Source: Alphaproteobacteria bacterium (GTDB lineage: Bacteria; Pseudomonadota; Alphaproteobacteria; Rhizobiales; Devosiaceae). Taken from it: a stretch of 64,000 nucleotides of DNA. The stretch spans positions 62,001-126,000 of the forward strand of contig JAHJWO010000046.1 in assembly GCA_018828145.1 (NCBI GenBank). Direction: 5' to 3'. The notes beneath the pieces were generated by a model. It was not told the DNA's origin, did no database searches, and saw only the letters and a program-made list of their open reading frames with translations. Position numbers and translations under genes: made by a program. Numbering within the stretch: the stretch's first letter is position 1; each line of letters begins with the position of its first letter. Shown in pieces: positions 24,526-56,896 of this stretch.

Positions 24526-25536
24526 CTAGCGAACCGGCCGCTCCCCGGCCAGGTCCGGGCGCATGAGCAGGACGACCTTGCCGATCTGGGCATTGGCATC
24601 GAGCATGGCATGGGCGGCCTGGACCTCCTCCAGGGCAAACTCGGCATGAATGCGGGTGGTCATGCGGCCATCGGACAGCAGGGGCCAGACATTGGCGACC
24701 AGCGCGGCGGCAATCCGGCCCTTATATTCGGGCGGGCGCGGGCGCAAAGTCGAGCCGGTCAGGGTCAAGCGGCGACGCACGAGATCGCGCGTATTGACCT
24801 CGGACACCGGAGACTGGTGGCTGGCGATCAGGACCAGGCGGCCATCATAGGCCAGCAGGTCGAGCTGGGTCTGGATATTGGGGCCGGCCTGGGCGTCGAG
24901 GGCAACGTCGATGCAATGCTCGCCGGCCGTGGCGCGAATCTGCGCGGCCCAGTCATCGCGATAGCTGAAGACGGCGTCGGCGCCGGCGGCCTGGCAGACC
25001 GCGCGCTTTTCGGGACTGCCGGCCGTGGCGAAGACGCGGGCGCCGCGGAGCTGCTTGGCCATCTGGATGCCGGCGAGGCCAACGCCGCTGCTGCCGCCCT
25101 GCACCAGGAGGGTTTCGCCCTGCCCCAGCCGGCCGAGCCAGATGATGTTGTTCCAGGCCGTGAAGAAGGCCTCGGGGAGCGAGGCGGCCTCGACGAAGCT
25201 GAGGCCGGTGGGCACCGGCATGCATTGCAGCGCCGGGACGACGACATAATCGGCATAGGCGCCGCCATTGGTGAGGACGCAGACAGCGTCCCCCACGGCA
25301 AAGGCCTCGACGCCCGCCCCCACAGCCGCGATGCGGCCGGCAGCGTCGAGGCCGGGAATGTCGGTCGTGCCGGGCGGCGGCGGATAGAGACCGCGGCGCT
25401 GCTGGATATCGGGCCGGTTGACGCTGGCGGCGTAGATCTCCAGCAGGACTTCACCCGGGCCGGGTACCGGCATCGGCCGATCGACGATCGCCAGGACTTC
25501 GGGCCCGCCCGGCCGGGTTATCTCGACAACACGCAA
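24526..25536 (-). CDS. NADPH:quinone oxidoreductase, PIG3/QOR type
   Basis: Medium-chain dehydrogenase of 336 residues without the zinc-binding residues. Seen: ITRPGGPEVLAIVDRPMPVP, VNRPDIQQRRGLYPPPPG (the PIG3-like block), Rossmann motif LVQGGSSGVGLAGIQMAKQL, and the C-terminal AHAMLDANAQIGKVVL. The start is TTG 25536; no ATG or GTG in frame lies close by and the protein begins as in relatives. It ends an operon with the FAH-family and DUF6282 genes, 7 bases after the former. The reaction is probably reduction of a quinone or an enone from the catabolic pathway. Confidence 0.9.
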   Translation of the reverse strand: MRVVEITRPGGPEVLAIVDRPMPVPGPGEVLLEIYAASVNRPDIQQRRGLYPPPPGTTDIPGLDAAGRIAAVGAGVEAFAVGDAVCVLTNGGAYADYVVVPALQCMPVPTGLSFVEAASLPEAFFTAWNNIIWLGRLGQGETLLVQGGSSGVGLAGIQMAKQLRGARVFATAGSPEKRAVCQAAGADAVFSYRDDWAAQIRATAGEHCIDVALDAQAGPNIQTQLDLLAYDGRLVLIASHQSPVSEVNTRDLVRRRLTLTGSTLRPRPPEYKGRIAAALVANVWPLLSDGRMTTRIHAEFALEEVQAAHAMLDANAQIGKVVLLMRPDLAGERPVR

Positions 25537-25543
25537 GGCTGGT

Positions 25544-26533
25544 TCAATCCTTCCAGTCGTGGCGAATGGTGCTGGTCAGGCGCCCCAGGCCTTCGATCTC
25601 GATATCCATGGTGCCATCGATCTGGTGCATGTTGACCGAGCGGTGGCCATCGGGGAACTTGCCGACGCCCTTGGCGGAGGTACCGAAGCAGATCACGTCG
25701 CCGGGCTCCAGCGTAAAGTAGCGGCTGGCCTCGGCCACCACCTGCTCGATCTTGAAGCGGTAGCTGGCGGTGGAGTCGACGGCGAAGGGCTCGCCATCGA
25801 GCCAGCCTTCGACCTTGAGCGCATTGGGATCGGCCACTTCATCGGCGGTGGTGATCCAGGGTCCCATCGGGCCGAAGGTGTCGGTGGCCTTGGAGCGGGC
25901 GTGATAGACGAAATAGACGTCGTTGTCGTCGGGGCCATGGCGATTGCGCCAAGACAGGTGATGGTCGCGCATCAGGTGTGGCTCGCGCGTGGTGGCAATG
26001 GAATCCATGCCGAACTTCATGCCATGCGAGGTGACATCGTTGACGATGGTGTAGCCGAAGAGCGCGGTGCGTGCCTCCTCGTCGGTGAGGTCCTTGCAGC
26101 GGCGGCCGACAATGCCGGCCAGCTCGAGCTCGGGAATGGTTTCGCCATAGTGCTGCTTCATGATGATGGCCTTGCCGTGCCCGACCAGGCTCGAAGGCGC
26201 CTTGAAGAAGAAGTTGGGCACGCCCGGATCCTTATGGGCGGCCTTGCGGATGCCCATATTGTTGAAGGCGACGCCGACGATCTTGCTGGGATTGGGCTGC
26301 GGCGGGAGCCAGTCGAGCCTGGCCGGATCGAGCAAGTCCACCCCGGTCGCAGCGGCCAGCGCCCTGGCGGCGCGTTCCAGCTCCGGCTTGCCCGCTTCGA
26401 TGAAGTCATTGAGGCTCATCGGCGCGGCGCCGAGGCCGGCATGGCGATAGAGGGCTTCGAGCGTGGCGGCCTGCTCGCCGACCTTGGCGATCAGGGTCTT
26501 GCGGCCATCGAGAATGACGGTTCCGAGTTTCAT
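25544..26533 (-). CDS. Fumarylacetoacetate hydrolase-family protein
   Basis: Mg-dependent C-C hydrolase or hydratase/decarboxylase-like enzyme of 329 residues. Seen: KIVGVAFNNMGIRKAAHKDP, FFKAPSSLVGHGKAIIMKQH, the metal-site phrase PELELAGIVGRRCKDL, then GYTIVNDVTSHGMKFGMD, and FGTSAKGVGKFPDGHRSVNM near the end. The 80-90 residue N-terminal region before the catalytic fold is common in this family. The family acts on 2-oxo acids such as acylpyruvates, 2-oxohept-3-enedioate or sugar-derived diketo acids; the substrate here is unknown. The start ATG 26533 overlaps the DUF6282 stop by 4 bases. Confidence 0.9.
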   Translation of the reverse strand: MKLGTVILDGRKTLIAKVGEQAATLEALYRHAGLGAAPMSLNDFIEAGKPELERAARALAAATGVDLLDPARLDWLPPQPNPSKIVGVAFNNMGIRKAAHKDPGVPNFFFKAPSSLVGHGKAIIMKQHYGETIPELELAGIVGRRCKDLTDEEARTALFGYTIVNDVTSHGMKFGMDSIATTREPHLMRDHHLSWRNRHGPDDNDVYFVYHARSKATDTFGPMGPWITTADEVADPNALKVEGWLDGEPFAVDSTASYRFKIEQVVAEASRYFTLEPGDVICFGTSAKGVGKFPDGHRSVNMHQIDGTMDIEIEGLGRLTSTIRHDWKD

Positions 26534-27474
26534 ATGCGGGCCTCCAGGCCAACCAGTTTTGCGGGATTGTCGCGCACCATGGTGGTGACATCGGTTTCGG
26601 TGAAGCCGAGGCCCAGCAAGAGGGCGACGGCCTGGCGCAGGCCCTCGACCGGGCTCGGATTGTCGACCTGGCCGAGATCGGAGCCGATCGAGGAATTGGC
26701 GACGCCGGCGGCCTCGATATGCTGCTTGAGTTCGGCGGGCGAATAGGTGTTGAAGCGCGAGTCCACATAGAGACAGGCGGACTGCTCGACCACGGCGCCA
26801 AGCGCCGCCAGCTCGGCCGTATCGGCATGGGTGAAGTGGAGCCCATACATCGGGTGGTTGATGACCAGACGCTTGACGCCGCGCTTGCGGGCCTCGTCGA
26901 ACAGGACCCAGATTTCGGCGACATGCAGATGGCCCGACGACAGGATGGCGTCATGGGCGGCGATCATATCGAGGATTTCGCGGACCGTGTCGAGCAGGTC
27001 GCCATTGTCATCGAGGACGGTGAGGGGCCGTGGCTTGCGGAGCTGGATATTGGACTTGAGCTTGCCGCCCCGGTGGTTGGACCGGATGTGGTTGGCGGCA
27101 TGGGCGGTGGGCATGAAGACCATCTTCGTGCCGCTCTTGAGATGGAAATCGACCACGGCCGGATTGAAGCCGCCGGTGGAATTGTTGAGCACCAGCGAGC
27201 CATACATGGCCACGCCATAGTGCGAGAGGAGCCGCTCCATGATGGGCAGGAACGGGCCGACCGAATAGTGGTGATCCTTGAACAGGATGCCGCGCAGGCC
27301 AGCCGCGGCCGCCTGTTCGACCGCCTCGAAATGATCGAGCTGGCGGGCCATGGTGGACGGGCCGGAATGGACATGCAGATCGACGGCGCCCTGCAGCAGA
27401 CGGTCGATGGTGGCGGGGTCGATGCCGGCGATGATCTGCCTGGCTTCGGCTCTGTTGTCGTCGTTCTCAGCCAT
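26530..27474 (-). CDS. DUF6282-type metal-dependent hydrolase-like protein
   Basis: A 314-residue protein with an amidohydrolase-like pattern. Seen: AVDLHVHSGPSTMARQLDHF (HxH metal motif near residue 33), GILFKDHHYSVGPFLPIMER, SSGHLHVAEIWVLF with a second His pair, LVINHPMYG, and SIGSDLGQVDNPSPVEGL with a late Asp. This order of His and Asp ligands resembles PHP or amidohydrolase barrels. The family is, from memory, uncharacterised. It is the first gene of the minus-strand operon with the FAH-family and quinone oxidoreductase genes. An IclR-type palindrome lies 76-92 bases upstream. Confidence 0.82.
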   Translation of the reverse strand: MAENDDNRAEARQIIAGIDPATIDRLLQGAVDLHVHSGPSTMARQLDHFEAVEQAAAAGLRGILFKDHHYSVGPFLPIMERLLSHYGVAMYGSLVLNNSTGGFNPAVVDFHLKSGTKMVFMPTAHAANHIRSNHRGGKLKSNIQLRKPRPLTVLDDNGDLLDTVREILDMIAAHDAILSSGHLHVAEIWVLFDEARKRGVKRLVINHPMYGLHFTHADTAELAALGAVVEQSACLYVDSRFNTYSPAELKQHIEAAGVANSSIGSDLGQVDNPSPVEGLRQAVALLLGLGFTETDVTTMVRDNPAKLVGLEARI

Positions 27475-27549
27475 CTTTCACGGCGCTCCCTGCTGGACTG
27501 CGCCGACCTATCCACCCTTGCGTGTGACGGACAAATCCACTCTATTTCG

Positions 27550-27566
27550 TTTCCGGCAGGCGGAAA
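27550..27566. promoter_or_regulatory. IclR-type operator, site 1
   Basis: Palindrome TTTCCG-GCAGG-CGGAAA between the divergent DUF6282 and iclR genes, 11 bases before the iclR start. The same arms occur at 28376 and 35454. It could control both divergent transcripts. Confidence 0.8.
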
Positions 27567-27576
27567 GTGACCGAGA

Positions 27577-28368
27577 ATGGCTGAGCGTGACGAGGATGCG
27601 GTGCGGGCCGCGAGCCGGGTTCTGGCGGTGTTGCAGGCGATGAACCGGGAGCCGCATTCGACGCTGCATTCGCTGCATGGGGCGACCGGCCTGCCCAAAT
27701 CCACGCTGGTGCGGCTGCTGAAGACGCTGACAGCCGACGGCTATGTGAGCAGTGATCCGCGGCATGCGGGATATCAGATCACCTCGCTGGTCACCTCGCT
27801 CAGCAGCGGCTTTCATGGCGACCCGCTGGTGGTGGAGGCCGGGCGCGCCTGGGCCATCGGGCTCAGTGCGGAATTCAAGTGGCCGGTGGCGATCGCCGCC
27901 TTTGACCGCGATGCGGTCGTCGTGCGCTATTCGACGGTCTATGACAGCCCGATCTCGCCCTTTCACGCGACCATCAACATGCGGCTGAGCCTCTTCACCC
28001 GGGCATTGGGACGGGCTTACCTCGCCTCGTGCAGCGACGAGCAGGTCGACACCATGATCGCGCGCGCCGGATCGGGCGATTCCCTCGAAAGCGCGGAAGC
28101 CAGGGAGCATGACCGGGTGTGGCGCATGGTGCGCACCACGCGCGATCGCGGCTTTGCCATGCGCGACCCCAATGTGGAGCCGCGCACCTCGGACACGATT
28201 GCCGTGCCGATCTTTGCGCGCGGCGTGGTGCAGGCGAGCATCGGCATGACCTATTTCCGGGCGGCCACCAATGCGTTCGGCTCGCGCGATGCGCTGGTGG
28301 CAGCGCTGAAGCGGGCCGCCGAGGGGATCGGCGCCGAGGTCGACCGGCTGACCGCACACCAGAAGTAA
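27577..28368 (+). CDS. IclR-family transcriptional regulator (MhpR-like)
   Basis: Regulator of 263 residues. Seen: ASRVLAVLQAMNREPHSTLH, winged HTH with LPKSTLVRLLKTLTADGYVS (about 39-58), then an effector domain with VVVRYSTVYDSPISPFHATI, RLSLFTRALGRAYLASCSDE and IAVPIFARGVVQASIGMTYF. The pattern resembles MhpR, the regulator of aromatic-acid catabolism in Escherichia coli. The gene lies at the hub of the locus, flanked by two of three matching palindromes; a third precedes the tctC gene. It is therefore the likely regulator of the whole 24.5-35.5 kb block. The effector is probably the imported acid or its CoA ester. Confidence 0.94.
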   Translation: MAERDEDAVRAASRVLAVLQAMNREPHSTLHSLHGATGLPKSTLVRLLKTLTADGYVSSDPRHAGYQITSLVTSLSSGFHGDPLVVEAGRAWAIGLSAEFKWPVAIAAFDRDAVVVRYSTVYDSPISPFHATINMRLSLFTRALGRAYLASCSDEQVDTMIARAGSGDSLESAEAREHDRVWRMVRTTRDRGFAMRDPNVEPRTSDTIAVPIFARGVVQASIGMTYFRAATNAFGSRDALVAALKRAAEGIGAEVDRLTAHQK

Positions 28369-28375
28369 CCACGAC

Positions 28376-28392
28376 TTTCCGCCTGGCGGAAA
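28376..28392. promoter_or_regulatory. IclR-type operator, site 2
   Basis: Palindrome TTTCCG-CCTGG-CGGAAA starting 7 bases after the iclR stop and 113 bases before tctB. It should control the tctB-tctA-maoC-acyl-CoA synthetase operon separately from iclR. Confidence 0.8.
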
Positions 28393-28505
28393 CCACCCCG
28401 GCCGATATTGTTCCGCAACCGCCCAACGGCGAGTTTCGCGCAGGTCAATCGGGCTGGGTGTCGCTTCGCAATGAGAACACCGCGCCAACCGGGAGGGGGC
28501 CCCTC

Positions 28506-28967
28506 ATGACAATGAATTCAGAACTGCTCACCGCACTGATCTTTCTCTTTTTTGGCGCCGTCGCGGTGGTGGTCGGCTGGGGTTATGGCCTTGGCGATCC
28601 CTCGGCGCTGGGCTCCGGCGCCATGCCGGTGCTGGCGGGTGGTGCGCTGGTGATCCTGGGCACGGCCCAGCTGTTGCGCACGCGTGCCGCCCACCGCGCC
28701 GGCGAGCGCCTGGCCAGTGCCTTTCCCAGCACCGAACTGCGGCCCTTGCTGATCATTCTGGCCGCTATCCTGGCCTTTGGCCTGCTGATCGACCGGGTGG
28801 GGCTGATCCCCGCCCTCACCGCGCTCATCGCCATCAGCTGGTTCGCCGAGACGGGCGGGCGCTGGCGGGAGCTGGCCCTGGTGCTGCTGGCCGTGGTGAC
28901 GCTGATCGTTGCCATCTTCTATTTCGGGCTGGGCATTCCGTTCCGCCTCGTCGCCTGGAGGTTCTGA
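28506..28967 (+). CDS. tctB: Tripartite tricarboxylate transporter small membrane subunit TctB
   Basis: Small inner-membrane subunit of 153 residues with four predicted helices. Seen: LLTALIFLFFGAVAVVVGWG, a loop GDPSALGSGAMPVLAGGALV that is typical of TctB proteins (the GxGxFP-like GSGAMP), then LLIILAAILAFGLLIDRVGL and ALVLLAVVTLIVAIFYFGLG. The start is ATG 28506 after GGGAGGGGG. Two bases separate it from tctA. The third subunit, TctC, is encoded 6 kb away on the other strand with the same operator. Confidence 0.9.
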   Translation: MTMNSELLTALIFLFFGAVAVVVGWGYGLGDPSALGSGAMPVLAGGALVILGTAQLLRTRAAHRAGERLASAFPSTELRPLLIILAAILAFGLLIDRVGLIPALTALIAISWFAETGGRWRELALVLLAVVTLIVAIFYFGLGIPFRLVAWRF

Positions 28968-28969
28968 GG

Positions 28970-30466
28970 ATGGATCTGTTCGCATCCCTGGCCATGGGCC
29001 TGCAGGTCGCCGTCACGCCGATCAACCTGCTCTATTGCCTTATGGGCGTGACCCTGGGCACCGCCATCGGCGTGCTGCCGGGCGTGGGGCCGATCATCAC
29101 GATCTCGCTGCTGCTGCCGCTGACCTTCGGGCTCTCCCCGGAAGCCTCGATCATCATGCTGGCCGGCATCTTCTATGGCGCGGCCTATGGCGGCTCGACC
29201 ACATCCATCCTGGTCAACCTGCCCGGCGAGGCCTCCTCGGCCGTGACCTGCATCGACGGGCACCAGATGGCCCGCAAGGGCCGGGCGGGCGCGGCGCTGG
29301 CCGTGGCGGCGCTCGGCTCGTTCTTTGCCGGCACGGTGGGCACGCTGATCATTGCACTGGCCGGGCCGCCGCTCGCCTCCATCGCCATGCGCTTTGGCGC
29401 GGCGGAATATGCCGCACTGGTCTTTGTGGCGCTGCTGAGCACTGCGGCGATGACGCGGGGCGGGGTGATCAAGGGGATCGGCGTGGCCCTGTTGGGCATG
29501 GTGTTCGGCACGGCCGGCTCGGATGTGTCGACAGGCATGTTCCGCTTCACCTTCGGCATGGCCGAAATGCGGGACGGCGTGGACTTCGCCGTGCTGGCCG
29601 TGGGCCTGTTTGCCGTGGCCGAGATCATCAGCAATATCGGTTCGCCCCAGGGCGAGGCCGTCTCGGCCAAGAATATCGGACGGCTTTGGCCCACGCGCGA
29701 CGACTTCCGCCGGTCCTGGCCGGCAGTGCTGCGCGGCACGGGGCTCGGCTCGCTGCTCGGCGTCCTGCCCGGAGCCGGCCTCGCGATGAGTTCCTTCTCG
29801 GCCTATATGGTGGAAAAGAGCATTGCCAAGGAACCGGACCGCTTCGGCCAGGGCGCGGTCGAGGGTGTCGCCGGACCGGAATCGGCCAACAACGCGGCGT
29901 CGCAGACCGCCTTCATCCCCACGCTGCTGCTGGGCGTTCCCGGCAGCCCGACCATGGCCCTGATGCTGGGCGCCTTCATGATCCATGGCGTGCAGCCGGG
30001 ACCGCGCATGATGGGCGACCATCCGCAACTGTTCTGGGGCCTCATCGTCTCGATGTGGGTGGGCAACCTGCTGCTGGTGGTGCTCAACCTGCCACTGATC
30101 GGGCTCTGGGTCCGGCTGCTGCGCGTGCCCTATCACTGGCTCTATGTGTTCGTGCTGGGCTTTGCCTGTGTCGGCGTCTTCACCATGAGCTCGTCGCATT
30201 TCGACATCTACTCGCTCGTATTCTTCGGCGCGCTTGGCTACCTGCTCAAGGCGGCCGGCTGCAACCCGGCCCTGTTCATCCTGGGCTTCATTCTCGGACC
30301 GATGTTCGAGGAGAATTTCCGGCGGGCGATGACGCTGTCGCGCGGCGACCCGATGGTGTTCCTCGAGCGTCCGATCAGCCTCACCTTCGTACTGATGGGC
30401 GTGGCGGTGCTGCTGGCGACGACGACATCGTTTGTGCGGCGCGGCCGGGCCGAGGTGACGGAATGA
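28970..30466 (+). CDS. tctA: Tripartite tricarboxylate transporter large membrane subunit TctA
   Basis: Large permease of 498 residues with about twelve membrane helices. Seen: CLMGVTLGTAIGVLPGVGPI, FYGAAYGGSTTSILVNLPGE, VEGVAGPESANNAASQTAFI and IPTLLLGVPGSPTMALMLGA, all signature blocks of TctA. Length is normal. The family imports organic acids such as citrate, aromatic acids or other carboxylates using the ion gradient and a TctC receptor. Second in the operon tctB-tctA-maoC-acyl-CoA synthetase. Confidence 0.95.
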   Translation: MDLFASLAMGLQVAVTPINLLYCLMGVTLGTAIGVLPGVGPIITISLLLPLTFGLSPEASIIMLAGIFYGAAYGGSTTSILVNLPGEASSAVTCIDGHQMARKGRAGAALAVAALGSFFAGTVGTLIIALAGPPLASIAMRFGAAEYAALVFVALLSTAAMTRGGVIKGIGVALLGMVFGTAGSDVSTGMFRFTFGMAEMRDGVDFAVLAVGLFAVAEIISNIGSPQGEAVSAKNIGRLWPTRDDFRRSWPAVLRGTGLGSLLGVLPGAGLAMSSFSAYMVEKSIAKEPDRFGQGAVEGVAGPESANNAASQTAFIPTLLLGVPGSPTMALMLGAFMIHGVQPGPRMMGDHPQLFWGLIVSMWVGNLLLVVLNLPLIGLWVRLLRVPYHWLYVFVLGFACVGVFTMSSSHFDIYSLVFFGALGYLLKAAGCNPALFILGFILGPMFEENFRRAMTLSRGDPMVFLERPISLTFVLMGVAVLLATTTSFVRRGRAEVTE

Positions 30467-30476
30467 GGGCGGGAGC

Positions 30477-30932
30477 ATGCTGACCGTCGAGAAGGCCGCG
30501 GACCTGGCGGCCCATGCCGGCCAGCTGCTCGGCCGGTCAGACTGGGTCAGCATCGACCAGACGATGATCGATGCCTTCGCCAACCTGACGGGCGACCGGC
30601 ACTGGATCCATGTCGATACGGCGCGTGCTGCCCAGGAGATGCCTGAGGGGCGCACCATTGCCCATGGGCTGCTGCTGCTATCGCTGATCCCCAACCTGCA
30701 GCATGAGATCTATGCGGTGACGCGCCGGGGGGCCGGGCTCAACTATGGCTATGACCGGGTCCGTTTCGTCAGCCCGGTGCTGGTTGATAGCCGGGTGCGG
30801 CTGGCCATGACGCTGATCGGCGTGCAGGCCCATGCGCAGGGGACGCGTCTGCTCACCGAGGCGACCATCGAGATCGAGGGCCGCGACAAGCCCGCACTGG
30901 TGGCCAACAACATCCTTCTGCTGAAAGACTGA
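30477..30932 (+). CDS. MaoC-family dehydratase 1
   Basis: Hot-dog-fold enoyl-CoA hydratase-like enzyme of 151 residues. Seen: DQTMIDAFANLTGDRHWIHV with the catalytic Asp/His pair, GRTIAHGLLLLSLIPNL, and NYGYDRVRFVSPVLVDSRVR, as in the 3-hydroxyacyl-CoA dehydratase group. GGGAG precedes ATG 30477. Three to five bases separate it from the acyl-CoA synthetase gene, whose product probably supplies its CoA-ester substrate. It differs clearly from the second MaoC protein at 32474-32920. Confidence 0.92.
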   Translation: MLTVEKAADLAAHAGQLLGRSDWVSIDQTMIDAFANLTGDRHWIHVDTARAAQEMPEGRTIAHGLLLLSLIPNLQHEIYAVTRRGAGLNYGYDRVRFVSPVLVDSRVRLAMTLIGVQAHAQGTRLLTEATIEIEGRDKPALVANNILLLKD

Positions 30933-30937
30933 TCGTG

Positions 30938-32473
30938 ATGACCGGAGACGAAGAGGGGCGGCTGCTGCACCGCATTCTGGCCAATGCAGCCGATGGCGGC
31001 GAGCGCCCGGCGATCAGCTGCGAGGGCGAGAGTGTGTCCTGGGCTGAACTGGCGCCGCGCGTGCTTGACCTGGCGGGAGCGATCGCCGCGGCGCCTGGTG
31101 ACGGGGATCGCCCGATCGGGCTGATCGGGCTCAACTCGCTCGATCTGGTCATCGCCTATCTGGCCATCATTGCCGCGGGCCGCTGCGCGGTGCCCCTGCC
31201 CGTCTCTGCCACTGCCGAGACCGTGACGGGAATGATCGATGATTGCGATCCCGCGCTGGTCTTTGCCGATGCGGCAGGCCTTGCCCTGATCGGGGACCGG
31301 GCGGCGGGCCGGGTGATCGCACTGGAGCCGCAAGCCGGTGGCGCAGTCGCGCTGGGCGACTTCCTGGCGCGCGGCACGCGACTCGCTGCGCCCGTGGACG
31401 TCGGCGGCAGCACCGACTTCAACATCATCTACAGTTCAGGCACGACGGCCAGGCCCAAGGGCATCGTGCATTCCCATGCCATGCGCTACCGGCAGGCGAC
31501 GCGCGGCGTGTTCCGGATCGGGCCGGCCAGCACGATGCTGCTGGCGACGCCGTTCTATTCCAACACCACTATCATGCCGCTGCTGGCGACGCTGGTGCAT
31601 GGGGGCCATGTGGTGCTGATTCGCAAATTCAGTGCTTCGGCCTATCTGGCGCTCGCCGTGCAGCATGGGGCGACGCATACAATGCTGGTGCCGGTGCAGT
31701 ATCAGCGCATCCTGGCTGAACCGGATTTCGACGCGCATGATCTCTCCGCCTTCGTGCTCAAGCAATGCACGGGCGCGCCGCTGACCGCGGGGCTCAAGCA
31801 GGCGGTGATCGCGCGTTGGCCGGGCGGGCTGTTCGAAATCTATGGCCTGACCGAGGGCGGCTGCACCTGCATTCTCGACGTGGCGACCTGGCCGGACAAG
31901 GCCCATACGGTGGGCCGGCCCGGCACCAACAATGACATCCGTATCATCGACGAGGCCGGCAACCTGCTCCCGGTGGGGCAGGCCGGCGAGGTGGTGGGGC
32001 GCTCGCCGGCGATGATGTCGCGCTATTTCCGCAATCCGACGGCGACGGAAGCCTTCTATTGGCGCGACGCGGCGGGAGAGGTGTTTCACCGAACCGGCGA
32101 TATCGGGGCCTTCGACAAGGATGGATTTCTGGTCCTGCTCGATCGCAAGAAGGACATGATCATTTCGGGCGGCTTCAACATCTATGCGACCGATCTCGAG
32201 CGGACGCTGCTCGACCACCCCGAGGTCGAGGATGCCGCCGTGATCGCCGTGCCCAGCGCGCAATGGGGCGAGACGCCGCTTGGCCTCGTGGTCATGCGGC
32301 CGGGCTCGGCCACGGATGGGCCGGCGCTGCTGGAATGGGCCAATGGCCGGGTCGGCAAGCTGCAGCGACTGAGTGCGATCGAGCTGCGTCCGACACTGCC
32401 CCGTTCGCCGGCAGGCAAGCTGCTGAAGCCGGAACTCAAGAAACCCTATTGGGACACGGCGCGGGCGGGCTGA
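30938..32473 (+). CDS. Class I adenylate-forming enzyme (acyl-CoA synthetase)
   Basis: ATP-dependent acid:CoA ligase of 511 residues. Seen: P-loop IIYSSGTTARPKGIVHSHAM, YGLTEGGCTCILD (A5-like), FHRTGDIGAFDKDGFLVLLD, RKKDMIISGGFNIYATDLER and the C-terminal RSPAGKLLKPEL with the catalytic Lys. The ATG at 30938 or the GTG directly before could start translation. It should activate the acid brought in by the Tct system. The stop TGA (32471-32473) directly abuts the stop of the convergent second maoC gene. Carboxylate unknown: aromatic, dicarboxylic or short branched acids all fit. Confidence 0.93.
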   Translation: MTGDEEGRLLHRILANAADGGERPAISCEGESVSWAELAPRVLDLAGAIAAAPGDGDRPIGLIGLNSLDLVIAYLAIIAAGRCAVPLPVSATAETVTGMIDDCDPALVFADAAGLALIGDRAAGRVIALEPQAGGAVALGDFLARGTRLAAPVDVGGSTDFNIIYSSGTTARPKGIVHSHAMRYRQATRGVFRIGPASTMLLATPFYSNTTIMPLLATLVHGGHVVLIRKFSASAYLALAVQHGATHTMLVPVQYQRILAEPDFDAHDLSAFVLKQCTGAPLTAGLKQAVIARWPGGLFEIYGLTEGGCTCILDVATWPDKAHTVGRPGTNNDIRIIDEAGNLLPVGQAGEVVGRSPAMMSRYFRNPTATEAFYWRDAAGEVFHRTGDIGAFDKDGFLVLLDRKKDMIISGGFNIYATDLERTLLDHPEVEDAAVIAVPSAQWGETPLGLVVMRPGSATDGPALLEWANGRVGKLQRLSAIELRPTLPRSPAGKLLKPELKKPYWDTARAG

Positions 32474-32920
32474 TCAGGCCCGACGCGCCGGGATCTGGCC
32501 GATCGACACCATGGTCATCACCGTCTCGCCAGCCTGGTTGATGACCGAGACGCGCGTGCGGATGACGCCGTAGCCGGGGCGGGTCGAGCGCTGGGCATCG
32601 ACCACTTCGCGGGTGACGTGAAGGCTGTCGCCGGGGCGCACCGGCTTTTTCCAGCGCAGTTCGTCGACGCCCATGCCGACAATCGGGGTTTCGCCGTAGC
32701 CGCCGGACTGGATGAAGAGGCGCATGGACAGGGCCGCCACCTGCCAACCGCTGGCGATGAGACCGCCGAAGCGCCCCGCCGCTGCCGCGGCCGGATCGGT
32801 GTGCATGGGCTGGGGGTCGTTGACCTGGGCGAAAGCGATAATGTCCTGTTCGGTCAGGATGATAGCGGGGCTGATCCAGGTCTCGCCGACGACGAAATCT
32901 TCAAGAAAACGGGCGGCCAT
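32474..32920 (-). CDS. MaoC-family dehydratase 2
   Basis: Second hot-dog hydratase, 146 residues. Seen: RFLEDFVVGETWISPAIILT, the catalytic block FAQVNDPQPMHTDPAAAAAG, GLIASGWQVAALSMRLF and GMGVDELRWKKPVRPGDSLH. This set matches the MaoC group that includes mesaconyl-CoA hydratase-like and itaconyl-CoA hydratase-like enzymes, but it is not diagnostic. The start is ATG 32920, 4 bases after the MmgE/PrpD stop. Last gene of the minus-strand operon tctC, mmgE/prpD, maoC. Confidence 0.91.
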   Translation of the reverse strand: MAARFLEDFVVGETWISPAIILTEQDIIAFAQVNDPQPMHTDPAAAAAGRFGGLIASGWQVAALSMRLFIQSGGYGETPIVGMGVDELRWKKPVRPGDSLHVTREVVDAQRSTRPGYGVIRTRVSVINQAGETVMTMVSIGQIPARRA

Positions 32921-32924
32921 GGCG

Positions 32925-34313
32925 CTAGTGCCGCAGCCGGGAGAAGACGGCATCGACATCGTCTGCCGCTTCCAGGGTCATCAGGCGGTCGATGAGTTCG
33001 TCGCGTAGCTGGGGCGCGATGACGCCGTCCACATTGGCGCGGAACTTGTCGAGATAGACCGCGTCGGGCGCGGGATTGCGGCTTGTGCCGAGCATGTCCT
33101 CGACAGTGTGGCTGAGTACGCGGCCGTCATTCATGGTGATCGACACCACTGCGCGGGAGCGGCTGGTATCGGCGGCGGCAACCGGGTCGGGCACGTGAAT
33201 CACCTTATCCGCCAAGGCATTGATCACCGGGTCGTGCAGGCTGGAGGGGGCATAGGCGGACTTGTCGAAGCGGCCCAGGGCCAGGGCTTCGGCCACCGTG
33301 TGCTGCAGGCTGATGCGGCCATGCCAGGAGCTGCGGGGCCGGCGCTTGTCCTCGACCGGCTCGCAGACGGTACGGAAGGAACGCGGCATGATGGCGCAAG
33401 AAATCTCGCGGATTTCTGCAAGCATGATGGCGTTTTGCTGGCGCAATGCCAGCGCGGCGGAGATGAAGGGCATCAGGGTATAGGCGCAGGGATAGAGCTT
33501 GGGGGCGATGTTGAGCACCTCCCAGCGCGAGCCGAGTTCGTCGGTCAGCGCGGCGAAGTTGAAGTCGGTCTCGGCCTGGACGTGGCTGCGGTACCAGCCG
33601 AAGCGGCCCTCGAACACCAGGTCCGGACCGGTAATGCCATGCCTGGCCAAAGCGACGGCGCGCAGGGCGGCGGCGGCGGCGAAGCCGACATGCATGGTCT
33701 TGGTGGAGGTGCCATCCTCGAAGGAGGCGATGGAGCCCGAGGAGAGGCTGGCGGCGGTGCCGACGGCATCGACCATCTGGCTGTGCGGCAGGCCGCGCAG
33801 GCGGGCGACGGCATAGGCGGCGGCAAAGACGCCATAGACGCCGGTGGGATGAAAGCCCATTTCGTGCATGCGCACCGGGGTGACCATGCCGAGGCGGCAG
33901 ACGATTTCGGAGCCGACCAGCAGGGCCTCGAGCAATTGGCGACCGGAAAGGCGGGCGGACTGCGCGACGGGCAGGATGGCGGCGGCGATGGCGCAGGTGG
34001 CGTGGATATTGGTGGCGAGATGGGTGTCGTCGAATTCCAGCACGGCCGCGGCGACGCCATTGACGAAGGCGGCATTGGCCGGCGAGGTCGCGCGGGCATC
34101 CATCAGGCTATGGGCGCCGCGCCCCCCGGCATCCGCATCGGCAACGGCGCGCCGGGCGGCCTCGACATTGTCGTGGCCATTGGAGGCAATCATCACGCCG
34201 ATCACGTCGAGCAGCCGGAGCTTGGTGTTGTGGACCACCTCGGCGGGGGCGGCATCCAGCGAAAAGCCGATCGCCCAATCGGCCAGCTGCGAACTCACAC
34301 CAGTCATGGGCAT
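32925..34313 (-). CDS. MmgE/PrpD-family protein
   Basis: Enzyme of 462 residues in the family of 2-methylcitrate dehydratase and cis-aconitate decarboxylase, cofactor-independent lyases. Seen: LADWAIGFSLDAAPAEVVHN, LLDVIGVMIASNGHDNV, AAAVLEFDDTHLATNIHATC, MGFHPTGVYGVFAAAYAVAR, SLSSGSIASFEDGTSTKTMH, and LYPCAYTLMPFISAAL. The FDDTH and GFHPT blocks are strongly conserved in the family. Together with an acid transporter, a CoA ligase and two hydratases it suggests catabolism of a hydroxy or unsaturated di- or tricarboxylic acid. Substrate not determined. Confidence 0.93.
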   Translation of the reverse strand: MPMTGVSSQLADWAIGFSLDAAPAEVVHNTKLRLLDVIGVMIASNGHDNVEAARRAVADADAGGRGAHSLMDARATSPANAAFVNGVAAAVLEFDDTHLATNIHATCAIAAAILPVAQSARLSGRQLLEALLVGSEIVCRLGMVTPVRMHEMGFHPTGVYGVFAAAYAVARLRGLPHSQMVDAVGTAASLSSGSIASFEDGTSTKTMHVGFAAAAALRAVALARHGITGPDLVFEGRFGWYRSHVQAETDFNFAALTDELGSRWEVLNIAPKLYPCAYTLMPFISAALALRQQNAIMLAEIREISCAIMPRSFRTVCEPVEDKRRPRSSWHGRISLQHTVAEALALGRFDKSAYAPSSLHDPVINALADKVIHVPDPVAAADTSRSRAVVSITMNDGRVLSHTVEDMLGTSRNPAPDAVYLDKFRANVDGVIAPQLRDELIDRLMTLEAADDVDAVFSRLRH

Positions 34314-34358
34314 CCCTGCTACAGTGGCGCCCCGATCGGGACGCGGATCTCAGAAAGC

Positions 34359-34396
34359 GGCGGCCGGCAGCTTGGTCATATGCGCTGCCGGCCGCC
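34359..34396 (-). promoter_or_regulatory. Stem-loop between tctC and the MmgE/PrpD gene
   Basis: Perfect 13-base stem GGCGGCCGGCAGC / GCTGCCGGCCGCC with a 12-base loop, 14 bases beyond the tctC stop. The minus strand continues GCTTTCTGAG, too weak a T-run for a sure terminator, so attenuation or mRNA protection is more likely. Confidence 0.7.
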
Positions 34397-34410
34397 AGGG
34401 TGTCGTGCGA

Positions 34411-35373
34411 TTATTTGGCGAGGCCGAGCCCGGTAAGCAGGGTCTCGAAGCGCTCATAGTCGGAGCGCAGGGCCGAATCGAGCATGGAGCCGGTCATGAA
34501 GCGCGGCGACACGCCGGCCTTGCCGAGCCTTTCGACGAAGGCCGGATCGGCATTGGCCTCTTCCAGCGCCGCCTCGATGGCCGCAACGACGTCGGCGGGC
34601 ATGCCGGCGGGACCCATGACCATCTGCCAGCCGGTGCCGGTGATGCTGTCATAGCCGCTTTCGAGCAGGGCCGGCACGTCGGGGAATTCGGCGATGCGGT
34701 CGGCGCCCGGCACGGCCAGTGGCGTGACCGTATCCTGGCGCACCTGCGGAATGGCCGCGGCATCCATCATGAACTGCACGTCGCCGGCCAGGACGGCCTG
34801 CACGACTTCGGCAGCACCCTTATAGGGAATGTGGGCGGCCTCGATGCCCATGACGTTGAGCATATCCACGGTGGCGACGTGGCCAGTGGAGCCGACGCCA
34901 ACCGAGCCGTAGTTCATCTCGCCGGGATGGGCTTTGCCATAGGCGACAAATTCTTCGAGGTTGCTGACCTCAAGCGACTTGGAGGCGACGAGCATGCGGA
35001 CCGCTTCACTGACATTGGCGATGGCAGTGAAATCGACAAAGGGGTCAAAGCCGACATCGGCCAGATGCGGCGCGGTGGTGAAGATGGCATTGCCTGCCAG
35101 AAGGAGGGTCGAGCCATCGGCCGGTGCGCGCGACACCTGCTCGGCGCCGATGGCGCCACTGGCGCCGCCCACATTCTCCACCACGAAGTTGACGCCCAGA
35201 CGCCGGCTCAGCTCATCGGCGACCAGACGCCCAACGGTGTCGCCCGCGCCGCCCGCCGCGTAGGGCACAACCATGGTCACCGTGTCGACAGGATAGGTCC
35301 CCTGCGCCCAGGCGGGGCTGGCCGCCGTCAGTGTCATGGCCGCCGCAATGGTCAAACCCGCATACATGTTCAT
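34411..35373 (-). CDS. tctC: Tripartite tricarboxylate transporter substrate-binding protein TctC
   Basis: Periplasmic receptor of 320 residues (Bug family). Seen: signal peptide MNMYAGLTIAAAMTLTAASP with cleavage near AWAQ, then VDTVTMVVPYAAGGAGDTVG, the ligand-site loop NVGGASGAIGAEQVSRAPAD, GSTLLLAGNAIFTTAPHL, and KAHPGEMNYGSVGVGSTGHV. GGAGG lies 6 bases before ATG 35373. It must work with TctA and TctB encoded on the other strand; all three share the same palindrome upstream. It leads the operon tctC, mmgE/prpD, maoC. Confidence 0.95.
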   Translation of the reverse strand: MNMYAGLTIAAAMTLTAASPAWAQGTYPVDTVTMVVPYAAGGAGDTVGRLVADELSRRLGVNFVVENVGGASGAIGAEQVSRAPADGSTLLLAGNAIFTTAPHLADVGFDPFVDFTAIANVSEAVRMLVASKSLEVSNLEEFVAYGKAHPGEMNYGSVGVGSTGHVATVDMLNVMGIEAAHIPYKGAAEVVQAVLAGDVQFMMDAAAIPQVRQDTVTPLAVPGADRIAEFPDVPALLESGYDSITGTGWQMVMGPAGMPADVVAAIEAALEEANADPAFVERLGKAGVSPRFMTGSMLDSALRSDYERFETLLTGLGLAK

Positions 35374-35453
35374 CACTCACCTCCCAGTGCGTTTTTTTGG
35401 CACTTATACCGTTTGGCAGCTAGCCCGGTGTGGCGCATGGAGACGCTCCTGGC

Positions 35454-35470
35454 TTTCCGTCTGCCGGAAA
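35454..35470. promoter_or_regulatory. IclR-type operator, site 3
   Basis: Palindrome TTTCCG-TCTGC-CGGAAA 81 bases upstream of the tctC start, with arms identical to the sites at 27550 and 28376. It ties the tctC operon to the IclR regulon. Confidence 0.8.
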
Positions 35471-36826: not shown

Positions 36827-37579
36827 TTACGCCAGGACCTCCTCTGCCGGATCCGCGAATGCCGTGACGCCGACATGCAGGTGAGACTGCAGGGCGTATT
36901 GGTAGCGAATCCGATCTCTCAGCTCCAAGGCGTCCACCACGGCAGCATGCTGCTCGTAGGTGTCGTCCGTGAAGTTATGCAGCTCCTTGCCGCGTTCCAT
37001 GATGCGGATGATGACCGGTTTCATGATGCGATAAACGTCGCGCACTGCCCGATTATCGAGGATCGAGACCAGGCGGAGATGGAAGCGGAAATCCATCTCG
37101 GAGGCTTCCGCAATGGAGCCGGCGGCGCGCAGCTGTGCATTGATGGACCGCATGGCCGCGATATCGTCGGGCCGCATCTGATCGAAGATGGCATCGACAG
37201 AGCCGACCTCGATCAGCTTGCGGAAGCCCTGGATGTCGTTGAACGTGCGGCGCGAGATGTCGAGCGTATTGAACGAGAACAGGTCGAGCGCGCGCTCCAT
37301 GCGGTCATCGACGATGATGGCGCCCACCTTGGGGCGCACAGAGACGATGCCATAGGCCTTCATGATGCGCATGGCCTCGCGCACCGTGTTGCGGCTGGCC
37401 TGAAAGCGCTCGCACAATTCCCGCTCGGTGGGCAGGCTGTCGCCCACGCCGAGCCCCCCGTCGGAGATGAGGCCACGGATGTTGGCCACCATGGCATCCA
37501 CCGCCGAGGGGATAGAGCTGCGCACAATGGAGGCGTTCAGCGCGCTGCCGGCTGCCCCCATCCGAGACGGATCGTTCAT
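36827..37579 (-). CDS. GntR-family regulator with FCD domain
   Basis: Regulator of 250 residues, FadR subfamily. Seen: winged HTH with LPTERELCERFQASRNTVRE (about 49-68) and AMRIMKAYGIVSVRPKVGAI, then an all-helical FCD effector domain with DIQGFRKLIEVGSVDAIFDQ, EMDFRFHLRLVSILDNRAVR and DDTYEQHAAVVDALELRD; the His and Asp residues match the FCD metal site. The start overlaps the fused permease stop by 4 bases. Probably controls this operon and the divergent ATPase gene, sensing a sugar acid. Confidence 0.94.
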   Translation of the reverse strand: MNDPSRMGAAGSALNASIVRSSIPSAVDAMVANIRGLISDGGLGVGDSLPTERELCERFQASRNTVREAMRIMKAYGIVSVRPKVGAIIVDDRMERALDLFSFNTLDISRRTFNDIQGFRKLIEVGSVDAIFDQMRPDDIAAMRSINAQLRAAGSIAEASEMDFRFHLRLVSILDNRAVRDVYRIMKPVIIRIMERGKELHNFTDDTYEQHAAVVDALELRDRIRYQYALQSHLHVGVTAFADPAEEVLA

Positions 37580-39540
37580 CCCTTGACGGCCCCGACGGTG
37601 AGACCTTCCGAGAGGAAGCGCTGGGCATAGACATAGAGCACGGCGACCGGAATGGCCGTCAGGAGCGACGCCGCCATCAGCTTGCCCCAGGGCAGGATGT
37701 CGCCGACCACCAGCGATTGCAGCCCGATCGGCAGGGTGCGCAGGGACTCACTGGTGATGAAGACAAAGGCGAACAGGAATTCGTTCCAGGCATTGGTAAA
37801 GGCAAAGAGGGTCACCGACAGGATGGCAGGCGCGGCGAGCGGCAGGGTGATGCGCCAGAAGATGTAGAGCTGACTTGCGCCATCGATGCGCGCCGCTTCC
37901 TCGAGTTCGATCGGGATGGATCGGAAATATCCCATTAGCACCCAGGTGGCGAAGGGCAACAGAAATGTCGGATAGGTGATGATCAGCGCGGTGTGGCTGT
38001 TGATGACGCCCATGGTGGTCAGCGTCTGGTAGAGCGGGATGAACAGCAGCGTGCCGGGCAGCAGATAGGTGATGAGCAGCAGCGTGGTCAGCAGGCCCGC
38101 GCCGCGGAACCGAAGGCGCGACAGAGCATAGGCGGCCAGCGAGGCCAGGGCCACCGAGACCAGCGTGCTCAGGGCCGCAACGAAGACCGAGTTCATCAGC
38201 CAGGTCAGGAAAGGCGTATCGCGCAGGAGCGAGGTATATTGCTCGGTGGTGGCCGGCTCGGGCCAGAAGATGGAGCGCCGCTCGCTGATCTGCGTCGTGG
38301 TCTTCAGCGAGGTCGTGATGATCCAGTAGAAGGGGAACAGCACGAAGACCAGCAGCGGGGTCAGCACCAGGAGGCGCGCCAGCGGGCCGGCATTGGAACG
38401 CGCCTGCTGCCGGAAGATGGGCTGCAGCGGGGACCGGCCGGTGGCCACGCGCACCCGGCGCACCACCCATTCCATGGCGGCGAAGACCAGCTGAATGGGC
38501 AGGAAGAACAGGTCGATGATGATGTTGACCAGCCAGGTGCCGCCCGCGAGCAGGCGGTCGGCAAAGCCCGGACCACGCTCGGAGGCGCCATCGCGCCGGT
38601 CATCGTGGCGCATGAAGCGCGCCAGCAGCCAGATCAGGATGGCCATCAGGGGCGCAACGCTGAAGGCGATGGCGATGCCCGGACCATATTGCAGGGAGCC
38701 GAGCGCCTTTTCATAGGCCAGGATGGAATAGAGCTTGGTGGCGCCGCTGGGCCCGCCGCCGGTCATCAGGAAGGGCAGACCGAACTGGTTGAAGGTGGAG
38801 ATGAAAGACAGCAGCAGGGTGACGACGATGACATAGCGCAGGCCGGGCAGCGTGACATTGCGGAAGCGCTGCACGGCATTGGCGCCATCGACCTGCGCGG
38901 CCTCGAGCTGTTCGCGATCGACCGCCTTGAGGCCGGCCAGCAGCAGCAGGACGAAGAAGGGAATGCCTTTCCAGACATTGACCGAAATGATGCTGCCCAT
39001 GGCCATGCCGGGATCGGACAGCCAGCCGAGCGGACGATCGATGACGCCCACACCCTGCAGGATGGGATTGAGGCCGCCGAACATGGGATCGTAGATGCTC
39101 TTCCAGGCCAGGGCGGTGACGATTTCCGGCACGATCCAGGGCAGCAGCATGATGCCGCTGAGCAGGCTGCGGAACGGCAGGCGGCTGTTGAGGATGAGCG
39201 CCACGGTCATGCCGATGACGAATTTGAGCAGGAGCGACCAGAAGGTGAACTGGATGGTGTTCTGCATGGACTGCAGGAAGTCGCTGCTGGTCCACAGGCG
39301 CTGATAGTTGCGGAACCCCACGCTGGTGGTTTCGCCGGTCAGGAAATTGAGCGATGTCGTGCTGATGAAGATGGCGCTGACAAAGGGCCAGAAGATCAGC
39401 AGCGCCATGATGAGCACCATGGGCAATACAAACAGGTAGCCGACCTTCCAGTCGCGACCGAAGAGGTTTTCCAGACGCTTGCGCAGCGTCGGACGGGCCT
39501 GAGCCGAACCCATCGTCGTCAAGATCATCCGATCTTCCAT
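37576..39540 (-). CDS. Fused MalF-MalG type ABC transporter permease
   Basis: One chain of 654 residues carries both CUT1 permease halves. Seen: N-half about 33-310 with first helix GYLFVLPMVLIMALLIFWPF, and EAA loop QLEAAQVDGANAVQRFRNVT (211-230); a linker about 311-385; C-half from about 386 with LLVLTPLLVFVLFPFYWIIT and EAA loop LEEAARIDGASQLYIFWRIT (546-565). The linker holds an extra hydrophobic stretch at about 336-357. No stop codon or frameshift interrupts it. GGAG lies 7 bases before ATG 39540. Normally these subunits are separate, as at 10365-12145. It follows the binding-protein gene and a stem-loop, and overlaps the GntR gene. Confidence 0.93.
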   Translation of the reverse strand: MEDRMILTTMGSAQARPTLRKRLENLFGRDWKVGYLFVLPMVLIMALLIFWPFVSAIFISTTSLNFLTGETTSVGFRNYQRLWTSSDFLQSMQNTIQFTFWSLLLKFVIGMTVALILNSRLPFRSLLSGIMLLPWIVPEIVTALAWKSIYDPMFGGLNPILQGVGVIDRPLGWLSDPGMAMGSIISVNVWKGIPFFVLLLLAGLKAVDREQLEAAQVDGANAVQRFRNVTLPGLRYVIVVTLLLSFISTFNQFGLPFLMTGGGPSGATKLYSILAYEKALGSLQYGPGIAIAFSVAPLMAILIWLLARFMRHDDRRDGASERGPGFADRLLAGGTWLVNIIIDLFFLPIQLVFAAMEWVVRRVRVATGRSPLQPIFRQQARSNAGPLARLLVLTPLLVFVLFPFYWIITTSLKTTTQISERRSIFWPEPATTEQYTSLLRDTPFLTWLMNSVFVAALSTLVSVALASLAAYALSRLRFRGAGLLTTLLLITYLLPGTLLFIPLYQTLTTMGVINSHTALIITYPTFLLPFATWVLMGYFRSIPIELEEAARIDGASQLYIFWRITLPLAAPAILSVTLFAFTNAWNEFLFAFVFITSESLRTLPIGLQSLVVGDILPWGKLMAASLLTAIPVAVLYVYAQRFLSEGLTVGAVKG

Positions 39541-39630
39541 GCCTATGCTCCATCGGGGCCCTGAACCCCTGTCGAAAGAGAAAGCAGCCGCGCGGCTCAC
39601 AGGCAGCGCAGGCACCGGTCAGTCGATAGA

Positions 39631-56496: not shown

Positions 56497-56660
56497 CCTG
56501 CGGACCTGTCGCTGCCCTGGCCGGGGTAGAATGAGTACCGCGTTGGGGAAGGCCTGCTCATCCGGGCTTTTCGAACAGCTGTCATAGCTGAGATGGCTTC
56601 ACCGGTTACGCCTTTGTGCCCACTTGATCTCGTCGGCCTCACTCCCTATTCCAACATCAG

Positions 56661-56805
56661 TGTTCTCAGGGCGGGGTGAAATTCCCCACCGGCGGTAATT
56701 GTGTCTTTCGGCACATCAGCCCGCGAGCGCCCATCCCTTGGGATGGGGTCAGCAGACCCGGTGTAATTCCGGGGCCGACGGTATAGTCCGGATGGAAGAG
56801 AACCG
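56661..56805 (+). promoter_or_regulatory. FMN riboswitch (RFN element)
   Basis: All conserved blocks are present in order: TTCTCAGGGCGGGGTGAAAT, CCCCACCGGCGGTAAT, AGCCCGCGAGCGCC, GGTCAGCAGACCCGGTGTAA, TTCCGGGGCCGACGGTATAG and TCCGGATGGAAGAGAA. It ends about 90 bases before ribD. It should reduce expression of the rib operon when FMN binds; the mode (early stop or blocked translation) is not clear, as no strong terminator stem with T-run was identified downstream. Confidence 0.96.
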
Positions 56806-56896
56806 ATGATTGTGCACGCGCGCTTTCCGTTCACCGGACAGCGCGTGTTCGTCGTCATTTGCCCTGGAACGCGTCTGTAGTGACGACGGAACGGGC

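Follow-up and report, generated by a model that had tools for sequence, protein, structure and literature searches.

A block of catabolic genes with an IclR-family regulator gene in its midst lay in a 64,000-nucleotide stretch of an alphaproteobacterial genome of the family Devosiaceae (GenBank assembly GCA_018828145.1, contig JAHJWO010000046.1, positions 62,001 to 126,000), here called the window. The block carried three palindromes with arms TTTCCG and CGGAAA around five free bases, and a comparison of sequences suggests that these are very probably the operators of the IclR regulator encoded between two of them. Site 1 (27550-27566, TTTCCGGCAGGCGGAAA) stood in the gap between the genes for a DUF6282 protein and for the regulator, its centre (27558) lying 84 base pairs (bp) 5′ of the former and 19 bp 5′ of the latter. 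Site 2 (28376-28392, TTTCCGCCTGGCGGAAA) stood in the gap between iclR and tctB, with its centre 122 bp 5′ of tctB, and site 3 (35454-35470, TTTCCGTCTGCCGGAAA) was found 5′ of tctC, with its centre 86-89 bp away (GTG or ATG start). An earlier note on this DNA had placed identical arms at these three coordinates, each palindrome before a different operon, and both statements proved right, all three copies being exact. It had also described the sites as enclosing only this catabolic block. Two details can be added: the operon that site 1 faces lies outside 27550-35470, and the single name maoC used for the block covers two different genes.

The regulator gene iclR (27577-28368, plus strand) encodes a protein of 263 amino acids (aa) with an IclR helix-turn-helix domain (HTH_IclR, PF09339, 43.2 bits against a cut-off of 22) and an IclR C-terminal effector domain (IclR_C, PF01614, 26.5 bits against a cut-off of 24). 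Its best NCBIfam models were the MhpR-type PRK09834 set. Filing the protein as MhpR was considered and dropped, since the MhpR equivalog NF007342 scored 232.5, under the curated cut-off of 251.

Site 1 separates iclR from an operon, all on the minus strand, that encodes the DUF6282 protein (PF19799, 26530-27474), a fumarylacetoacetate-hydrolase (FAA) family enzyme (25544-26533) and a member of the zinc-type alcohol dehydrogenase (ADH) / quinone oxidoreductase family (24526-25536). Site 2 heads a plus-strand operon of tctB (28506-28967), tctA (28970-30466), a first MaoC-like hydratase gene (30477-30932) and a gene for an acyl-CoA ligase of the AMP-forming family (30935-32473). Site 3 heads a minus-strand operon of tctC (34411-35376), a gene for an MmgE/PrpD family enzyme (32925-34313) and a second MaoC-like hydratase gene (32474-32959). 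A tripartite tricarboxylate transporter was encoded completely, with its small membrane subunit TctB (PF07331), large membrane subunit TctA (PF01970) and periplasmic binding protein TctC (PF03401). Since the membrane subunits and the binding subunit of this one transporter are split over two operons, it is the common operator that joins them. TctC, TctA and MaoC are, we presume, COG3181, COG3333 and COG2030, respectively. The nearest solved chains were BugD and the terephthalate-binding protein for TctC, IRG1 and IDS-epimerase for the MmgE/PrpD enzyme, and diketo-deoxyrhamnonate and maleylpyruvate hydrolases for the FAA protein.

The exact palindrome was not frequent. It occurred 3 times in its own 4.43 Mb genome (4,433,230 bases, 61 contigs), always in the block, and the reversed-pattern control gave 0 copies. 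For three randomly scattered sites to fall inside 7.9 kb by chance has a probability of about 1e-5. Copies with at most one mismatch numbered 17 against 5 for the control, so that single near-matches carry little meaning. One such copy, at 56824, directly followed an FMN riboswitch (RF00050, 121.5 bits, 56658-56807, plus strand) and is probably there by chance. The motif had been offered as a handle for finding further members in the genome, and here the earlier note was not upheld: no regulon member outside the block was established among the 25 sites there that matched the loose core TTYCG-N5-CGRAA, 20 of them inside and 5 between open reading frames (ORFs) as drawn by a mechanical caller. 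Two single sites were observed elsewhere. At position 1844 of locus L145 (G000:C47:12345), TTTTCGGTATGCGAAAA preceded a further IclR paralogue of this genome by about 50 bp and is possibly the operator of that paralogue. At position 1500 of locus L119 (G000:C16:200058), a full palindrome, GTTCCGGACGCCGGAAC, lay between a LysR-looking gene and one that begins, to judge by its first residues, like an exported binding protein; it is a possible further target.

Conservation of the sites around IclR homologues

An order-wide scan with the pattern found at least one exact copy in 134 of 297 genomes. As this was too noisy to be used alone, the comparison was anchored on IclR homologues: relatives were chosen by similarity of the IclR protein and not by motif, and up to 20 kb around each homologue was taken. 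Eight clusters had all three promoters, namely the window, L111 (apparently Devosia sp. 1566), L067, L114, L115, L138 (apparently Pelagibacterium limicola), L139 and L140, the last two being near-identical and worth about one case. The sites were kept at the same three promoters in these relatives. The widened core TTYCG-N5-CGRAA was present in strict form at 22 of the 24 promoters, and the two remaining ones (tctC in L067, tctB in L115) had a site with one mismatch. All three sites and the entire gene order of the window recurred in L138. In L139 and L140 iclR closes the DUF6282 operon and the site stands at the DUF6282 promoter, while in L111 it stands between divergent iclR and adh, with no DUF6282 gene beside iclR. 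Distances from site centre to start codon were close in the window and L111 (19 and 19 bp for iclR, 122 and 119 for tctB, 89 from the ATG and 90 for tctC).

Over 18 loci, the window included (IclR identity 42-100%), 30 core sites were counted against 2.29 expected from each genome's own count, with genome sizes rounded for some. For the loci bearing sites, the single-locus chance ranged from 6e-7 to 0.09. When the spacer was varied from 0 to 13, the 30 sites at a length of 5 compared with 0-8 at every other length, and with R and Y flanks added there were 27 sites at 5 and 0-3 elsewhere. These counts bear on whether the palindromes arose by chance or were driven by codon usage. That the loose core was at background in the window's own genome (28 copies against 24 for the control) and that so many genomes of the order held an exact copy would both suit such an origin. 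However, all three exact copies fell within 8 kb, before three operons, and were kept at the same promoters in relatives; conservation refutes this explanation, which we give next to no credence.

Several loci weigh against a strict pairing of this IclR protein with the motif. Four of the 18 (L068, L094, L096 and L097; IclR identity 44-50%) had no site, and in a fifth, L098 (G931), the sole site was about 7 kb from iclR. Six further loci of the family comprised three with three sites each and three (L141-L143) without a strict site, two of the latter having a one-mismatch site between iclR and DUF6282. The motif also occurred outside the IclR clade of the window: over the 218,963 bases of eleven control loci, with IclR identity below 40%, 6 sites were counted, or 0.55 per locus as compared with 1.7. 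Two of these six stand by the iclR gene of G649, and related IclR proteins may thus share the motif. The distant relatives G530 and G117 each had three sites in 20 kb, two of which flank iclR in G530; those of G117 lay past the gene, at distances of 1 to 6.5 kb.

On a tree of 30 IclR proteins, presence of the site required 5 changes against 10.1 in shuffles, and 1 of 500 shuffles was as low, a result that near-copies favour. Labels were assigned by hand, "with site" meaning a strict site at a block promoter; G982, where the site lies about 0.75 kb past iclR, and G931, where it is 7 kb off, were entered as "without", and G649 (39% identity) as "with". The window's own clade (support 100/100) comprised five rows, all with sites and with the recognition helix LPK[PS]TLVR[LM]LKTL. 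In the sister clade 9 of 11 rows bore sites, and the remaining two were one-mismatch cases. Both subclades were represented in genome G1048 (L111 and L113, at 76% and 47% identity to the regulator of the window). Either locus had sites of this one motif, and the two related regulons may therefore cross-regulate. A search of named genomes with the IclR protein gave one distant locus, in Bosea caraganae; it lacked the motif, and tblastn at 1e-10 matched none of the cluster proteins there.

The same comparison bears on whether another protein reads the palindromes, for instance the GntR regulator encoded at 36827, about 1.4 kb from site 3. Proximity speaks for that protein. However, tblastn, run within the compared loci only, gave it no match in any of the others, the motif goes along with IclR homologues, and presence of the motif clusters on the IclR tree. 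The motif also has the published IclR form (Suvorova and Gelfand 2021, PMC8222616). We therefore disfavour a GntR reader as very unlikely. That the palindromes are features of the transcript is highly improbable. Site 2 starts 8 bases past the iclR stop codon, as a terminator might, but no terminator-like site was found at 27300-28700, a stretch that takes in sites 1 and 2. Moreover, adh and tctB diverge in L067, L073 and L114, and the tctB site between them follows the end of no gene; on that scan and this gene order a terminator at the middle site was rejected. The proposal that the three palindromes define an IclR regulon was supported by the conserved promoter sites and by their match to the group 1 motif of PMC8222616. 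Of the refuting conditions named in the earlier note, neither frequent occurrence of the motif nor its loss in relatives was seen.

Operator spacing and the direction of control

At the DUF6282 operon the predicted −35 element, TTGTCC (27529-27534, minus strand), was 24 bp from the centre of operator 1 and was followed by a −10-like ATAGGT (27506-27511, minus strand). At the tctB operon the predicted −35 element, TTGTTC (28408-28413, plus strand), was likewise 24 bp from the centre of operator 2. We infer both elements, the former from conservation. In 16 of 16 promoters of the site 1 type (DUF6282, or adh in L111; 14 with strict and 2 with one-mismatch sites), the distance from the operator centre to the first base of a TTG was exactly 24 bp. 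Among the tctB promoters this was so in 7 of 9 (8 strict sites, 1 with one mismatch), with one more at 25 bp. Mean TTG counts at other offsets were 0.12 and 0.17, respectively. The count was made after the pattern had been noticed, and L138-L142 were added later. It leaves out three adh promoters (L067, L073 and L114), the sites of L080, L081, L083, L098 and L101, the second site of L073, and those at L095:1251 and L116:11631. With TTG at 24 bp, then 17 bases and a poor −10 element, the operator centre would lie near −59 from the predicted start.

The tctC promoters had no TTG at a fixed offset. Instead, all eight (7 strict sites, 1 with one mismatch; assessed by eye) had TGSCA at 43-45 bp from the operator centre, about two turns further out; in the window this is the TGCCA at 35414-35418 (minus strand). 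The element is conserved, and that it acts as the −35 element would be a guess.

The iclR gene itself showed a different arrangement. In the nine sister-clade rows with sites, a good predicted iclR promoter of the form TTGAC[GT]-N16-TAT[AC]GT stood directly 5′ of the operator; because its −10 element ends just before the operator, the latter coincides with the predicted start of iclR. This arrangement was absent from the two rows of that clade with a one-mismatch site. In the window the candidate iclR promoter was TTGCGT-N17-TCTATT (27518-27546, plus strand), just 5′ of operator 1, with 7 of 12 matches.

We consider it reasonably probable, judging from this layout, that IclR activates the catabolic operons and represses its own gene. 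An IclR dimer would read the half-sites TTTCCG and CGGAAA across the 5-base spacer and would govern DUF6282-FAA hydrolase-ADH, tctB-tctA-maoC-ligase and tctC-mmgE-maoC as one catabolic unit. The transporter probably takes up a carboxylic acid, which would be converted to a CoA thioester, hydrated and cleaved, and an intracellular effector derived from it may act with IclR. From a position about 59 bp 5′ of the start, bound IclR would activate the DUF6282 and tctB promoters; at tctC it would act about two turns further upstream, and through operator 1 it would curb its own synthesis.

Several observations tell against activation. In L067, L073 and L114 an adh promoter shares the operator of tctB, and none of the three had a TTG at 24 bp. 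The counted sequences are akin, some of them nearly identical. A sigma-70 scan of 27300-28700 found no consensus promoter, and the −10 elements were poor. The iclR promoter candidates were weak in the window, L111 and L138 (6 to 7 of 12 matches). For the tctB group alone, the −35 score was tied at offsets 24, 18 and 28, and the TTG count gave the clearer picture. With sequences akin to one another, a count that came after the pattern and a scanned region lacking a consensus promoter, activation stays an inference. The same three sites could also serve an IclR protein that simply represses the three operons until its effector releases it, an explanation that competes with the activation step only. 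The family includes repressors, activators and dual regulators, according to the overview in PMC8222616. The operator at the predicted iclR start in nine sister-clade genomes and the weak promoter calls for the catabolic operons would both fit repression. However, at DUF6282 and tctB the operator lies upstream of the conserved TTG at a fixed 24 bp, which suits recruitment of polymerase better than blocking. Repression throughout is the less probable of the two.

Activation may extend to the clade as a whole. The clade would then have one operator-promoter module, its operator centred a fixed 24 bp from the −35 element, or about two helical turns further out at tctC, and would use it to activate a new carboxylate pathway dependent on DUF6282. 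With iclR and DUF6282 in divergent order, this operator would also lie at the iclR start, and one bound protein would repress its own gene and activate the neighbour. We give this wider proposal an even chance. The shared operators would tie under one regulator a tripartite transporter split over two operons, a protein of the uncharacterised DUF6282 family and six other enzymes. The functional unit is testable, with the 17-bp operator as a handle, and whichever compound induces the three promoters would point to the substrate. The fixed distance makes the question of activator or repressor directly testable for this IclR clade.

Relation to known IclR systems

Predicted sites for 1340 IclR proteins are given in PMC8222616, which describes subgroups with the patterns WTT-11-AAW and GTT-11-AAC. 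The sites of the window resemble its group 1, a 17-bp palindrome, and fit WTTYCR...YGRAAW at 12 of 12 outer positions. Most sites of the relatives have GTTYCG or ATTYCG arms, and as in that group sites are near the regulator gene. Against this assignment, the centres of the window sites are richer in G/C and fit the five central positions of WTTYCRYW3RYGRAAW/GTTYCRYW3RYGRAAC only partly. Positions in PMC8222616 are given relative to gene starts, and its sections on this point mention no fixed 24-bp distance to a −35 element. The same source lists COG3181, COG3333 and COG2030 among the COGs linked to aromatic metabolism.

Three characterised regulators offer partial parallels. The site of GenR from Corynebacterium glutamicum, ATTCC-N7(5)-GGAAT, has the same arm pattern and spacing, as quoted in PMC8222616, where the GenR paper (Chao and Zhou 2013) is one of those cited on dual roles; GenR is, however, an actinobacterial protein with other targets (3-hydroxybenzoate, gentisate). 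TphR of Comamonas is an IclR-family regulator of terephthalate use (Table 1 of PMC8222616), but the motif given there is TTTTTGCGCATAGCGCAAAAA, and no terephthalate dioxygenase was among the cluster proteins scanned. TctC of the window is related in sequence to a solved terephthalate-binding protein. The terephthalate-binding protein TphC is reportedly the binding protein of a tripartite transporter. MhpR of Escherichia coli is suggested as a parallel by the best NCBIfam models and by the name "mhp operon transcriptional activator" that relatives carry at JGI. It is an activator upstream of a catabolic promoter, at a position near −58. Its operator in PMC8222616 is nevertheless different (GGTGCACCTGGTGCACA), and no neighbouring protein scanned in the window was named as an mhp enzyme. 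The motif and the style of regulation are therefore already known, and the regulon is a new example of a known control circuit. New here are the fixed 24-bp spacing from operator to TTG and the position of the operator at the predicted iclR start in the sister clade. Among the papers listed by a literature search none dealt with this regulon; as the supplementary tables of PMC8222616 lay outside that search, an earlier prediction is possible.

DUF6282 and neighbouring genes

No paper naming DUF6282 was found in a literature search, and sequence comparison with solved structures gave no convincing relative. A structure model built from 34 sequences (pLDDT 86, pTM 0.87) predicted an amidohydrolase-like barrel. 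Its top Foldseek matches were amidohydrolases and related metallohydrolases, including 2-pyrone-4,6-dicarboxylate hydrolase, but with TM-scores of only about 0.4-0.6. H34 and H36, candidates for the metal-binding HxH that follows strand 1 of the TIM barrel in amidohydrolases, were invariant in all 34 aligned sequences.

At L080 10625-12302, L081 8022-9768 and L114 11562-12515, DUF6282 relatives had other genes in their company. In L080 and L081 one of these encodes an HpcH/HpaI aldolase; others encode proteins of about 300 aa that begin in the manner of NDPRA/SDPRS. The latter had no Pfam match at 0.001 and are perhaps a further member of a DUF6282 pathway. Elsewhere in the window, a single ORF of 679 aa (37576-39615, minus strand) contained two BPD_transp_1 ABC-permease stretches, apparently two permease subunits fused into one. 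It adjoins genes for a solute-binding protein, the GntR regulator and an enolase-superfamily dehydratase.

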